DNA of 64,000 nucleotides from Methylotenera mobilis JLW8 (GTDB lineage Bacteria > Pseudomonadota > Gammaproteobacteria > Burkholderiales > Methylophilaceae): contig NC_012968.1 of NCBI RefSeq assembly GCF_000023705.1, positions 992,001 to 1,056,000 of the forward strand, read 5' to 3'. The notes under the pieces were generated by a model. It searched no databases. It was given only the letters and a program-made list of their open reading frames with translations, and was not told where the DNA came from. Of the stretch, positions 18,556 to 27,091 are shown one piece after another (within the stretch, counting starts at the first letter, position 1; each line of letters opens with the position of its first letter). A program made the translations under genes and the position numbers.

Positions 18556-19524
18556 ATGCTTAAGCTACCAGACAATCTAAGTATTAGTCCTGGTCCAGTA
18601 CCGGTCGGTAGAGTAATACCCGTATTAGCTGTTGATAACATCGGGGCTACGTTACAAGAGTTAAATGCCAGAGCTACGCAATTTGTAATCGGTCGCGAAT
18701 ACACCGCACAAGTTGTTTCCAAAGTTGATGACCGTGCTTATCTGGTGAAAGTAGATAATGCGGTGTTGAAGATGGAGCTAGGCGACACAGCGCAAGCGGG
18801 TCAATCGATTAATCTGCGTTATATCAAAGACGGTCCAGCGCCAACCTTTTTCTTTATGCCCCAAGTAACTGCGCCCGCAGAAGGGTCACCTGAGATTAGC
18901 CAAGGTGCCCGCTTAATCGGACAGTATCTGCAGGAAGCTGAAAAAAACCAAGTGTCAAACAAGTATGAGGCGGCAGCTATTGTCACTCATAGCCCCAAAG
19001 AGCCTCTGGCGGTGGCGCATGGGTTAAAGCAAGCCATTAGTAATAGCGGTCTGTTTTACGAGTCTCACTTAAATGAAATGCTGCAAGGCGGACGCTCTGT
19101 AGCTACTATCATGCAAGAACCTCAAAATCAGCATCAAACCCTGAGTCAAATTGCTGCGCTAACATCACAGCAGCTTGCGGTGTTAGAGCAAAATCGGATT
19201 AATTGGCATGGTGAGGTGTGGCCTGGACAGATGATGGATTGGGATGTTTATATGGAGTCGCGCGATAAAGAGCGTGGTGAGGCAGCGGATGTACCGCGTG
19301 AGGACAGTGAGAGGCCTGTGGTGAGTGAGGTAAAGCTAGACTTCCCAAATTTGGGTGTGGTTGCTGCCAAATTAACCATCATCAATGGCTACGTGTCTAT
19401 TAATCTACGAGCGGAGCAAGATGCGACGATGGATGAGCTCAGGAATAAAAGTCGCGCTTTAACTCAGGCGATTAATAATACTGGGTTGAAATTAGACGGT
19501 TTGATTATTTCAGCATATGAGTAA
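18556..19524 (+). CDS. FliK-like protein with flagellar hook-length control C-terminal domain
   Basis: The 322-residue protein ends in a Flg_hook-type domain (about residues 235-322: 'LGVVAAKLTIINGYVSINLRA' in part, 'LKLDGLIISAYE'), as in FliK C-domains. The N-terminal part contains a probable small beta domain ('FVIGREYTAQVVSKVDDRAY') and a helical middle. A canonical fliK lies at 25808, so this is a paralogue or divergent relative. It overlaps by 8 bases the FlhX-type gene, which encodes the FlhB cytoplasmic domain. FliK acts on FlhB-C to switch export specificity, so the pairing is meaningful. Its true role (auxiliary switch or unrelated export accessory) is unknown. Confidence 0.7.
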   Translation: MLKLPDNLSISPGPVPVGRVIPVLAVDNIGATLQELNARATQFVIGREYTAQVVSKVDDRAYLVKVDNAVLKMELGDTAQAGQSINLRYIKDGPAPTFFFMPQVTAPAEGSPEISQGARLIGQYLQEAEKNQVSNKYEAAAIVTHSPKEPLAVAHGLKQAISNSGLFYESHLNEMLQGGRSVATIMQEPQNQHQTLSQIAALTSQQLAVLEQNRINWHGEVWPGQMMDWDVYMESRDKERGEAADVPREDSERPVVSEVKLDFPNLGVVAAKLTIINGYVSINLRAEQDATMDELRNKSRALTQAINNTGLKLDGLIISAYE

Positions 19525-19876
19525 ATCGGACGAACATAAGCGGTTGAACCCAACCTTGGGGCTTGCCCCCAATCGGCATGCCCCCTTTAACCCGAATCAG
19601 CAAGCAATAGCGTTAACCTATGCGACGGGTGATTATGCGCCACGTGTGGTGGCTAAAGGGCGTGGTTTAATTGCTGAGCAAATCATCGCTAGGGCGAAGC
19701 AGCATGATGTGTTTGTGCATGAATCTAAAGATTTGGTCGCGCTGCTGATGCAAGTGGACTTAGATGACCACATTCCACCTACGCTTTACCAAGCAATCGC
19801 AGAGATTTTATCCTGGCTCTATCGCATGGAAGAGGGTAGAGCCGGTGCCATAAGTGACGAATTGCCTGAAGGCTAA
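19517..19876 (+). CDS. Stand-alone FlhB C-terminal domain protein (FlhX-type)
   Basis: The 119 residues match the cytoplasmic C-terminal domain of FlhB/YscU ('AIALTYATGDYAPRVVAKG', 'IIARAKQHDVFVHES', 'IPPTLYQAIAEILSWLY') without the membrane domain. The autocleavage site NPTH of FlhB is replaced by 'NPNQ', so self-cleavage is not expected. Similar FlhX proteins are known in Helicobacter and in Bacillus (YlqH); in Helicobacter FlhX can partly replace the FlhB C-fragment. It overlaps the upstream FliK-like gene by 8 bases. It meets fliE tail to tail, with the two stop codons overlapping. Confidence 0.85.
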   Translation: MSKSDEHKRLNPTLGLAPNRHAPFNPNQQAIALTYATGDYAPRVVAKGRGLIAEQIIARAKQHDVFVHESKDLVALLMQVDLDDHIPPTLYQAIAEILSWLYRMEEGRAGAISDELPEG

Positions 19877-20229
19877 ATCTGCATACTCATGATGTCTTGA
19901 TAAGCAGAAACTAACTTGTTGCGTACCTGAATAGTTGCCTGAAATGAAATATTTGCTTTTTGTCCGGCAATCATTACGTCAGATAAGCTGACGCTATCGT
20001 CACCTAAGGCAAAGTTCTTGCCTAATGTTTCAGCACTTTTCTGTACTTGGTTTACTTGATCAAGTGATGCTTTTAATGCGTCTGCAAAATCAACCTTTCC
20101 GGTGCTTTTATTTGCGCCGATTGGAGAGGCTAAGTTTGCGATACTCTCTGCTTGTGGACGTTGTGCTGCAGCCCTCATTTGCGCAAGCATAGACTCTATT
20201 GTGCTTGAATCAATACCACCTGCCTTCAT
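19873..20229 (-). CDS. fliE: Flagellar MS ring-rod junction protein FliE
   Basis: FliE joins the MS ring (FliF) to the rod and is one of the first rod-type export substrates. The C-terminus shows the family signature 'SLSDVMIAGQKANISFQATIQVR' (in part) and ends 'AYQDIMSMQI'. The open frame runs further upstream, but the ATG at 20229 (118 residues) is chosen because a perfect AGGAGGT lies five bases before it and the length fits the family. It is transcribed away from fliF, so it has its own promoter in the 20230-20432 divergent region. It shares four bases with the end of the FlhX-type gene. Confidence 0.92.
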   Translation of the reverse strand: MKAGGIDSSTIESMLAQMRAAAQRPQAESIANLASPIGANKSTGKVDFADALKASLDQVNQVQKSAETLGKNFALGDDSVSLSDVMIAGQKANISFQATIQVRNKLVSAYQDIMSMQI

Positions 20230-20234
20230 GATTG

Positions 20235-20241
20235 ACCTCCT
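20235..20241 (-). promoter_or_regulatory. Strong ribosome binding site that fixes the fliE start
   Basis: AGGAGGT on the minus strand lies 5 bases before the ATG at 20229. It favours this start over an upstream in-frame ATG at 20325. Confidence 0.85.
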
Positions 20242-20432
20242 GTTAATATCTAACCTAAAATTTCTCACTGCTAATGTAACATCTAATTGAAATACCAAGT
20301 TGGTAAATAAGAAGAGTAAAATCACTCTATTCGTGGGTTAGATGTGTGATGGAATTGGCATAATGTGGTTTAAGTAGTGGTTAAACCGCCTTGATTTGTA
20401 GTAGTGTGTTTAGAGTCTAATGGAGAAATTAA

Positions 20433-25807: not shown

Positions 25808-27091
25808 ATGCAGTCATTACCAACGCCCGTAACGCAAACAAAAGCGCTTAATTTGGCTGATGTGGCGAGCAAAAATGGTTCGTCTGTAAGTAAATCATCA
25901 ACAGAAAACGCTAAAGCGGCATTTCAGGCCGAACTCAATAAGCAGGTTAAAGCTAAACAGGCACAAATCAAGCAAGATAAAAGTTCAGAACCTGCCAAAA
26001 ATACAGCGCAGCAAAATTCGTCAGTAAAGGATTCGTCTAAGGTTGAGCAAACGGATCAAGCCAATAAAGACACAAACACCACATCTGCAGATGCTGCTTT
26101 GTTAGCTGATTTTAATAAACAATTAGATGCAGCGCGTGATGTGGCCAACCAAGCTGACTTGAGTGATGCTAAAAATCAACCTCAAGTTACTGTACCTGTA
26201 GATGCAGAAAATAAAGAGGCGATTGTCTCTGAGTTGATTTCATCATTGGGCTTGGCTTCAGCACAAGGTTTGCAAAATGTTGCTGGTAATAGGCGTGCGT
26301 CGGTAGCGTCAGAAGCAGGTAATTCTACATTAAGCACGGCAGGTGCCGCTGCACAGCAAAAAAACTTAATAGCTGCCTTTAATAACTCAGCAGTCTCTGC
26401 ACAGCAGCCTGCTGATGTTAGTGCTAAACCTCAACCTGATGGCTTGGCAGATGTTCTGGCAGCTAAGCCTGATTTGAAATCGGCTGTAGATGATGCTACG
26501 TTTGGTAAGGCGATGGCTAATGCCGCTAAAGACTTGTCGACTAAAGAGTTGCCGGTAAAAGATGTTGTGCCTAATGTAGCGCAAATGCAAGCTGCAACAA
26601 CGAGTGCTGTGCAAAACAATAACAATGTTGCAGCACAGCAATTGGCGAGCTCAAATGTGATAAGCGTTTACCCGGGCAAGACCGGCTGGGACCAAGCAAT
26701 CAGTCAAAAGGTAGTATGGATGGTAGGTGCTGGGCAACAATCAGCCTCACTTACATTAAATCCGCCAGATATGGGGCCATTAAAAGTTGTGATTAATGTG
26801 CATAACGATCAGGCCGATACGACATTTATTTCAGATAATGATGAAGTAAGAAAAGCGCTTGAGAGCGGGATGTCACACTTGCGCGAAAAAATGAGCGAAT
26901 CTGGAATTCAATTGGGTCAGGCCAATGTAAGTACTAGTCAGCAATCGCAGCAGGAGTTTCAGCAGACTGCGCAGGGTGCTAAAGTATTTGGAGGTAGCAA
27001 TAGTCAATCAAATACAAAAGTAGTAGAGAATGACAGCCATGCCAAAGTGACTGTGCGCGTATCAGACGGATTGGTTGATACCTTTGCTTAA
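25808..27091 (+). CDS. fliK: Flagellar hook-length control protein FliK
   Basis: FliK is the secreted molecular ruler that stops hook growth by acting on FlhB. The 427-residue protein has a long Gln/Ala/Asp/Lys-rich, probably disordered N-terminal ruler (residues 1-290). The conserved C-terminal Flg_hook domain follows ('SASLTLNPPDMGPLKVVINV', then 'FISDNDEVRKALESGMSHLRE' in part), ending in a Gln-rich tail. 'LNPPDMGPL' is the classic LxPxxLGxL-type motif. Expression probably continues from fliJ. A separate control region precedes the next gene, fliL. Confidence 0.94.
   Translation: MQSLPTPVTQTKALNLADVASKNGSSVSKSSTENAKAAFQAELNKQVKAKQAQIKQDKSSEPAKNTAQQNSSVKDSSKVEQTDQANKDTNTTSADAALLADFNKQLDAARDVANQADLSDAKNQPQVTVPVDAENKEAIVSELISSLGLASAQGLQNVAGNRRASVASEAGNSTLSTAGAAAQQKNLIAAFNNSAVSAQQPADVSAKPQPDGLADVLAAKPDLKSAVDDATFGKAMANAAKDLSTKELPVKDVVPNVAQMQAATTSAVQNNNNVAAQQLASSNVISVYPGKTGWDQAISQKVVWMVGAGQQSASLTLNPPDMGPLKVVINVHNDQADTTFISDNDEVRKALESGMSHLREKMSESGIQLGQANVSTSQQSQQEFQQTAQGAKVFGGSNSQSNTKVVENDSHAKVTVRVSDGLVDTFA

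Follow-up and report, generated by a model that had tools for sequence, protein, structure and literature searches.

How FliK and the C-terminal domain (C-domain) of FlhB flip the specificity of flagellar export has been asked for decades, and the Salmonella model of 2026 builds on the C-domain being removed. The window analysed here, a 64,000-nucleotide stretch of the Methylotenera mobilis JLW8 genome, carries a canonical fliK as well as a second FliK-like gene, fliK2, which overlaps a gene for a stand-alone FlhB C-domain, flhX. What, then, might such a second pair do next to the canonical components of the switch?

The overlapping genes and the stand-alone FlhB C-domain

fliK2 occupies positions 18556..19524 of the plus strand and encodes a FliK-like protein of 322 aa, an assignment drawn from the ORF list, a PF02120 match, the conserved position beside flhX and the predicted structure. 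flhX (19517..19876, plus strand) encodes the FlhB C-domain of 119 aa, as judged from its ORF, profile matches, solved FlhB C-domains and a pocket alignment. Both genes start with ATG, and the stop of fliK2 overlaps the start of flhX by 8 bases (ATGAGTAA; 19517..19524, plus strand), an overlap that the earlier note had read correctly to the base. fliD, fliS and fliT lie upstream of the pair, and a search for a promoter of the pair's own yielded sigma-70-like sites at a level not above that of shuffled sequences (3 found, 5.4 expected). At the other end, a fliE-like ORF, named by eye, lies on the minus strand (19873-20325), and its end overlaps the end of flhX by four bases, forming a convergent junction.

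The C-terminus of FliK2 had been taken for FliK-like in the earlier note, a reading that a missing Flg_hook match would have refuted, and it does match the Flg_hook profile PF02120 (residues 257-320; E 7e-10, with 39 bits exceeding the cut-off of 29.8). A chance match was rejected, given that all 87 aligned FliK2 rows match this profile. Two Flg_hook matches were found in the genome, at window positions 19324-19518 and 26705-26953, the second belonging to the canonical fliK that had been placed at 25808. The genome likewise contains two FlhB-type matches, namely, the window FlhX and a full-length FlhB (G000:C1:1377033-1378052), the gene for which is located ~365 kb further along the genome.

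FlhX aligns with the C-terminal part of PF01312 only (profile positions 257-334 of 335, E 1.4e-19) and is matched by solved FlhB cytoplasmic domains (3b0z, E 5.8e-10). Its highest 19-residue Kyte-Doolittle mean is 0.69, so that no membrane helix is expected, and NPNQ (FlhX residues 25-28; 19589..19600, plus strand) stands where FlhB has the autocleavage motif NPTH, both in agreement with the initial reading of this protein as an FlhB-like part devoid of the membrane domain. Thus, of the features of FlhB, the window protein lacks the N-terminal membrane domain and NPTH and has the C-domain with the pocket for early substrates. According to the excerpted text of PMC9307174, early substrates dock in a pocket formed by FlhB A286, P287, A341 and L344, which correspond to A41, P42, A95 and L98 of FlhX (19637..19810, plus strand). 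We assembled a set of 134 FlhX, from which partial-coverage FlhX/FlhB matches were dropped (L264 among them), whereas two contig-cut FlhB (L128 and L145) were moved to the FlhB set; one member (L117) was counted without a check by eye. In the alignment of this set, none of the proteins carries NPTH (0/134), whereas the pocket residues are nearly universal: P287 is found in 134, A341 in 131, A286 in 124, and L344, as L or I, in 130. The pocket is equally conserved in FlhB C-domains, and in FlhX it may be retained for folding.

In a tree that included 84 FlhB C-domains, a comparison set obtained mainly through an FlhB motif scan and hence biased to the motif of that scan, 133 of the 134 FlhX and none of the 84 FlhB fell into one set with a local support of 0.993. 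Without the NPTH-end columns, the corresponding set comprised 132/134 FlhX versus 0/84 FlhB, with a support of only 0.177. From these alignments, an ancestry of FlhX separate from that of FlhB is likely, not certain. A recent local duplication of fliK and flhB was considered and rejected, because FlhX groups apart from FlhB across phyla and the resemblance of FliK2 to the window FliK is confined to the core (hhalign, E 4.2e-6 over 65 columns).

The closest described family is FlhX/FlhB2 (NCBIfam TIGR00789, flhB_rel), the members of which are, similarly, stand-alone FlhB C-domains without a membrane part, encoded apart from full FlhB; its Campylobacterota members L238 (Aliarcobacter) and L258 belong to the same tree set as the window FlhX. 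The window protein differs in that it carries NPNQ and scores under the naming cut-off of this family (94.6 bits versus 117.35). The earlier note compared the window pair with ylqG-ylqH of Bacillus, a tentative parallel; the TIGR00789 profile registers a match, above or below its cut-off, in the Bacillus subtilis control genome. The name FlhX is in use in the excerpts of three papers (PMC10746217, PMC9321776, PMC4894983).

Departures of FliK2 from canonical FliK

In the earlier note, the two products had been proposed to be counterparts of the partners in the export switch. This holds for the FliK core and the FlhB C-domain but not for the remainder of FliK2, which lacks both a ruler-like N-terminus and the FliK-type C-terminal end. 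The canonical FliK of the window (25808..27091, plus strand), recognised from its ORF, the PF02120 match and a comparison of tail and composition, has a hydrophilic N-terminal half and a 48-residue tail that ends in GLVDTFA. FliK2 shares with FliK the core switch domain of PF02120, whereas the ruler-like N-terminal half, the long tail and the GLVDxYA-type end are lacking, and it has instead an OB-like domain and an SG.F.E signature. The residues VILMFYW make up 32% of the first 200 aa of FliK2 versus 18% in the canonical FliK of the window.

AlphaFold2 modelling of the window FliK2 from an 87-row alignment (mean pLDDT 79.5, pTM 0.58) predicts a low-confidence stretch (residues 1-39), a five-strand barrel (48-101), helices (116-212) and the core domain (214-320). 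The predicted OB-like beta barrel, which would replace the ruler domain, spans residues 44-105 (18685..18870, plus strand); pLDDT is mostly 86-95 here, and residues 41-100 reach 86-95 by block. OB-type chains are its nearest structural neighbours at Z 6-7, such as chain W of the mitoribosomal small subunit 7pnt (Z 7.0, rmsd 2.8, 63 aligned residues) and PotA 8zx1 (Z 6.9, rmsd 2.9, 60 aligned). The predicted FliK/SctP core (residues 214-320; 19195..19515, plus strand), behind which no tail follows, resembles PscP 5cuk (Z 7.1, rmsd 3.2, 77 aligned) and FliK-C 2rrl (Z 5.5, rmsd 3.4, 75 aligned). All these Z values are below 8 and may reflect only a common arrangement. They come from a second look at the list of a Foldseek search of the PDB with the FliK2 model, a search in which no match reached E <= 0.001. 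The same architecture, barrel included, was predicted for L048, a member of the other subclass (mean pLDDT 84.1, pTM 0.74).

The predicted helical part contains the signature SGLFYESH (residues 164-171; 19045..19068, plus strand), and in a 24-row alignment of FliK2, residues 165, 167, 168, 169 and 171 are invariant, whereas 164 and 170 are conserved in at least 90% of the rows. This form is found in the clade of the window, and across the class, most other FliK2 carry SGLFLE. The likeness of the barrel to the OB domains of S1, S17, NusA-S1 and similar proteins, along with the match of a single FliK2 row out of 87 to Pfam RNase_II_C_S1 (E 2.5e-4), brings to mind a role in which the domain binds RNA and couples completion of the hook to translation of late genes. 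We consider such a role highly improbable: OB folds bind proteins too, and the structural likeness itself is in the range of Z < 8 just discussed.

The C-terminal end sets FliK2 apart as well. In Salmonella FliK, the core comprises residues 268-352 and the tail residues 353-405, as given in the excerpted text of PMC6972891. In a set of 37 canonical FliK (36 loci plus that of the window; L265, a FliK2, was removed), the tail behind the core is 42-59 residues long (median 47) and ends with an aromatic residue followed by A/V in 37/37 cases. This end is absent from all FliK2 with a complete C-terminus (0/100). In the survey of tail lengths, in which four FlhX-side loci (L044, L096, L097 and L101) gave no core-domain match, FliK2 of the window's type, with FYE in the signature, have a median tail of ~0 residues (n=28, range -2 to 16) and show no end motif (0/28), whereas in those without FYE the median is 17 residues (n=72). 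A short tail ending in Lxx[AVI] is found in 68/100 class-wide FliK2, so the tail is completely lost only in the clade of the window. Overall, FliK2 has the core domain of FliK and lacks the hydrophilic ruler and the ~47-aa tail with the aromatic-A/V end; with an N-terminal domain that is folded in the model and no FliK end in its sequence, FliK2 is unlikely to be a second ruler.

These features bear on the idea that FliK2 and FlhX form a second switch pair, in which FliK2 would be secreted like FliK and act on FlhX or FlhB for another class of substrates or another stage of assembly. The retained FliK core domain would fit, as would the Lxx[AVI] end of the 68 FliK2, which is somewhat like the end of FliK. 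We nevertheless regard this idea as very unlikely in view of the folded OB-like N-domain in place of a hydrophilic ruler, the absence of the aromatic-A/V end from 100 FliK2 and the lack of any end motif in the 28 proteins of the window's type.

Co-inheritance, the tie to flagella and a candidate role

Among 41 related genomes, FlhX is present in 24, that of the window included, and in each of the 24 loci FliK2 is encoded directly upstream on the same strand. We then turned to a sample of 232 genomes of at least 95% completeness drawn from the class, 85 of which, again counting that of the window, carry an intact FlhX. In 82 of the 84 further FlhX loci (78/80 plus 4/4), the adjacent upstream gene is FliK2. 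The two exceptions are G194, in which FliK2 lies ~1.4 kb upstream of FlhX with two genes between, and G236, in which it is found elsewhere in the genome, apart from FlhX. By eye, the two genes in G194 encode a response regulator and a STAS-domain protein, a rare interruption (L313, G194:C16:141588-146000). Another genome, G252, has two FlhX, one of which lies next to an ORF of the FliK2 type and an additional FlhB gene (L305, G252:C51:16500-22500), with the other pair on L312.

The co-occurrence of the two genes, the lack of which would have counted against the earlier note, is near-perfect in this sample. Among the 129 FlhB-bearing genomes (132 with a match, less G067, G078 and G263), 84 contain both genes, none FlhX alone and 3 FliK2 alone, and 42 are devoid of both (Fisher p 8e-31, uncorrected for relatedness). 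FliK2 without FlhX is thus seen in only 3 of 45 FlhB-bearing genomes (G271, G246 and G138), and each of these copies runs off the contig end before a possible flhX. The FliK2 profile was built from ORFs already found beside FlhX, and its matches are therefore not blind to adjacency, whereas PF02120 is independent. The overlap of the two genes is typical, too: in 88 of 102 pairs, the nearest start codon overlaps the fliK2 stop, the overlap measuring exactly 4 bases in 63 of the pairs and, as in the window, 8 bases in 14, although choosing the nearest start favours small distances. Such overlaps have the appearance expected of translational coupling but do not prove it.

The pair is tied to flagella. 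Intact FlhX is found in 84/129 FlhB-bearing genomes versus 1/103 genomes without FlhB, the single case being G078, an assembly of 590 contigs with 7% contamination. In G067, which lacks FlhB, both genes of the pair are split (L306, G067:C1:2591500-2594600), which looks like decay following flagellar loss, and in G263, also devoid of FlhB, only a piece of FlhX is left. That the pair might be a gene remnant in general is not supported, given its conservation and the occurrence of broken copies where FlhB is missing (G067 and G263) and in one FlhB-bearing genome (G154). At the same time, 45 of the 129 FlhB-bearing genomes do without the pair, indicating that it is not essential to switching.

FliK2 and FlhX also come in matched types. 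In 39 of 41 pairs with an FYE-type FliK2, FlhX has H and S at the positions equivalent to 68 and 70 of the window FlhX, whereas both residues together occur in none of 88 other pairs; the remaining two FYE pairs are from Halomonadaceae and retain the H. The FYE type is found in betaproteobacteria, Acidithiobacillus and Halomonadaceae. On the alignment evidence, this matching fits inheritance of the pair as a unit and by itself does not demonstrate contact; it could be due to common ancestry.

Given the co-inheritance, the flagellar tie, the kept pocket, the FliK2 core, the missing aromatic-A/V end and the matched types, along with the literature, we tentatively favour, with slightly less than even confidence, the reading that FliK2-FlhX is a cytosolic module dedicated to the flagellum, in which FlhX would act at the export gate as an exchangeable C-domain of FlhB. 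According to the respective papers, the FliK-C core binds FlhB-C (PMC6972891), FliK-driven removal of the FlhB C-domain switches the gate in Salmonella, the last five residues of FliK have been proposed to act in ejecting this domain, and FlhB without it does not secrete an early substrate (PMC13344023). By analogy, FliK2 would stay in the cytosol and hold FlhX through a contact like that between the FliK core and the FlhB C-domain; with the ejecting end missing, the complex would be stable rather than disruptive. FlhX would then be passed to the export gate, replace the cleaved C-domain of FlhB and keep or restore the docking of rod/hook substrates, and the pair might in this way tune the sharpness or the frequency of gate switching.

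A rather doubtful alternative is that FlhX works as a brake, with free FlhX serving in the cytosol as a decoy for early substrates or for FliK and delaying premature switching, and with FliK2 setting how much FlhX is free. The conserved pocket and the absence of a FliK-type end from FliK2 would suit such a brake, and the early state is held in Salmonella by Flk (Fluke), by another route (excerpted text of PMC13344023), but a decoy would not need a FliK core domain kept with it. The exchangeable module, in turn, leads to a further conjecture, which we put forward as an unlikely one, that the switch is reversible in FlhX-bearing bacteria: FliK2, able to recognise but not to eject a C-domain, would bring fresh FlhX and return switched gates to the rod/hook mode. 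If so, flagella could, for instance, be repaired or restarted, whereas the Salmonella switch is held to be irreversible once FliK has ejected the C-domain. A free C-domain and a FliK without the ejecting end, almost always neighbours in many flagellated bacteria, amount to a natural experiment that makes the C-domain removal model testable.

Related systems and spread beyond the class

The pair belongs to a pairing that is already known but has not been explained, to which the near-perfect co-inheritance and the departures of FliK2 from FliK are added here. Among open-licence papers, we found the pairing mentioned and left unexplained, and none that deals with the function of the pair or that describes the OB-like domain of FliK2, its signature or the absent end. 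In Pseudomonas putida, the same two kinds of genes reportedly form one operon under the flagellar regulator FleQ, with a 1.8-fold activation (PMC5026340). The pairs of P. guariconensis (L232) and P. gingeri (L236) belong to the family but to another subclass (SGAFLE/SGLFLE). A likeness extends to SctP and SctU of injectisomes, insofar as the predicted C-domain fold of FliK2 is like that of PscP and FlhX is like the SctU C-domain. SctU, however, is membrane-bound and autocleaved, and SctP is a secreted ruler.

A wider sample of 50 genomes was obtained through the FlhB motif scan (50 of 80 loci), and 30 of them encode a stand-alone FlhX. Profile-recognised FliK2 lies directly upstream in 26 of the 30 (25/27 plus 1/3), including, among others, Pseudomonas, Halomonadaceae, Nitrosomonas, Bordetella, Acidithiobacillus, Aliarcobacter, Nitrospirota, Eremiobacterota and clostridial genomes. 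A stand-alone FlhX did not turn up in the alphaproteobacterial, acidobacterial, planctomycete, myxococcal and Vibrio genomes of the 50-genome list, with secondary matches in long frames set aside. In the title of a paper, Helicobacter pylori HP1575 is reportedly called a 'spare part' in place of an FlhB C-domain that has been deleted, and we take HP1575, Campylobacter jejuni Cj0848c and YlqH to be relatives of FlhX by name, not by sequence. The title would suit a redundant backup, in which FlhX is a spare FlhB C-domain without a role in the wild type and FliK2 merely its stabiliser. One would expect decay of a pure backup, whereas the pair persists across phyla and is broken in genomes devoid of FlhB, and we judge this explanation very improbable compared with a dedicated, exchangeable C-domain module.

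Of the four clostridial FlhX loci (L253, L255, L259 and L264), two have a recognisable FliK2. The ORFs adjacent upstream at L259, L263 and L264 show weak similarity to the FliK2 profile (hhalign E 3.8e-4, 0.001 and 0.004; probabilities 36, 21 and 8%, respectively) and were not counted as FliK2. In a Campylobacterales MAG (L258), the neighbour of FlhX is not FliK-like; by eye, FlhX overlaps here a gene resembling that of a laccase-domain (YfiH-type) protein. In a Spirochaetales MAG (L263), trmD- and rplS-like genes, also assigned by eye, lie beside flhX and its upstream gene, and trmD and rplS are presumably found in the neighbourhood of ylqG-ylqH of B. subtilis, too.
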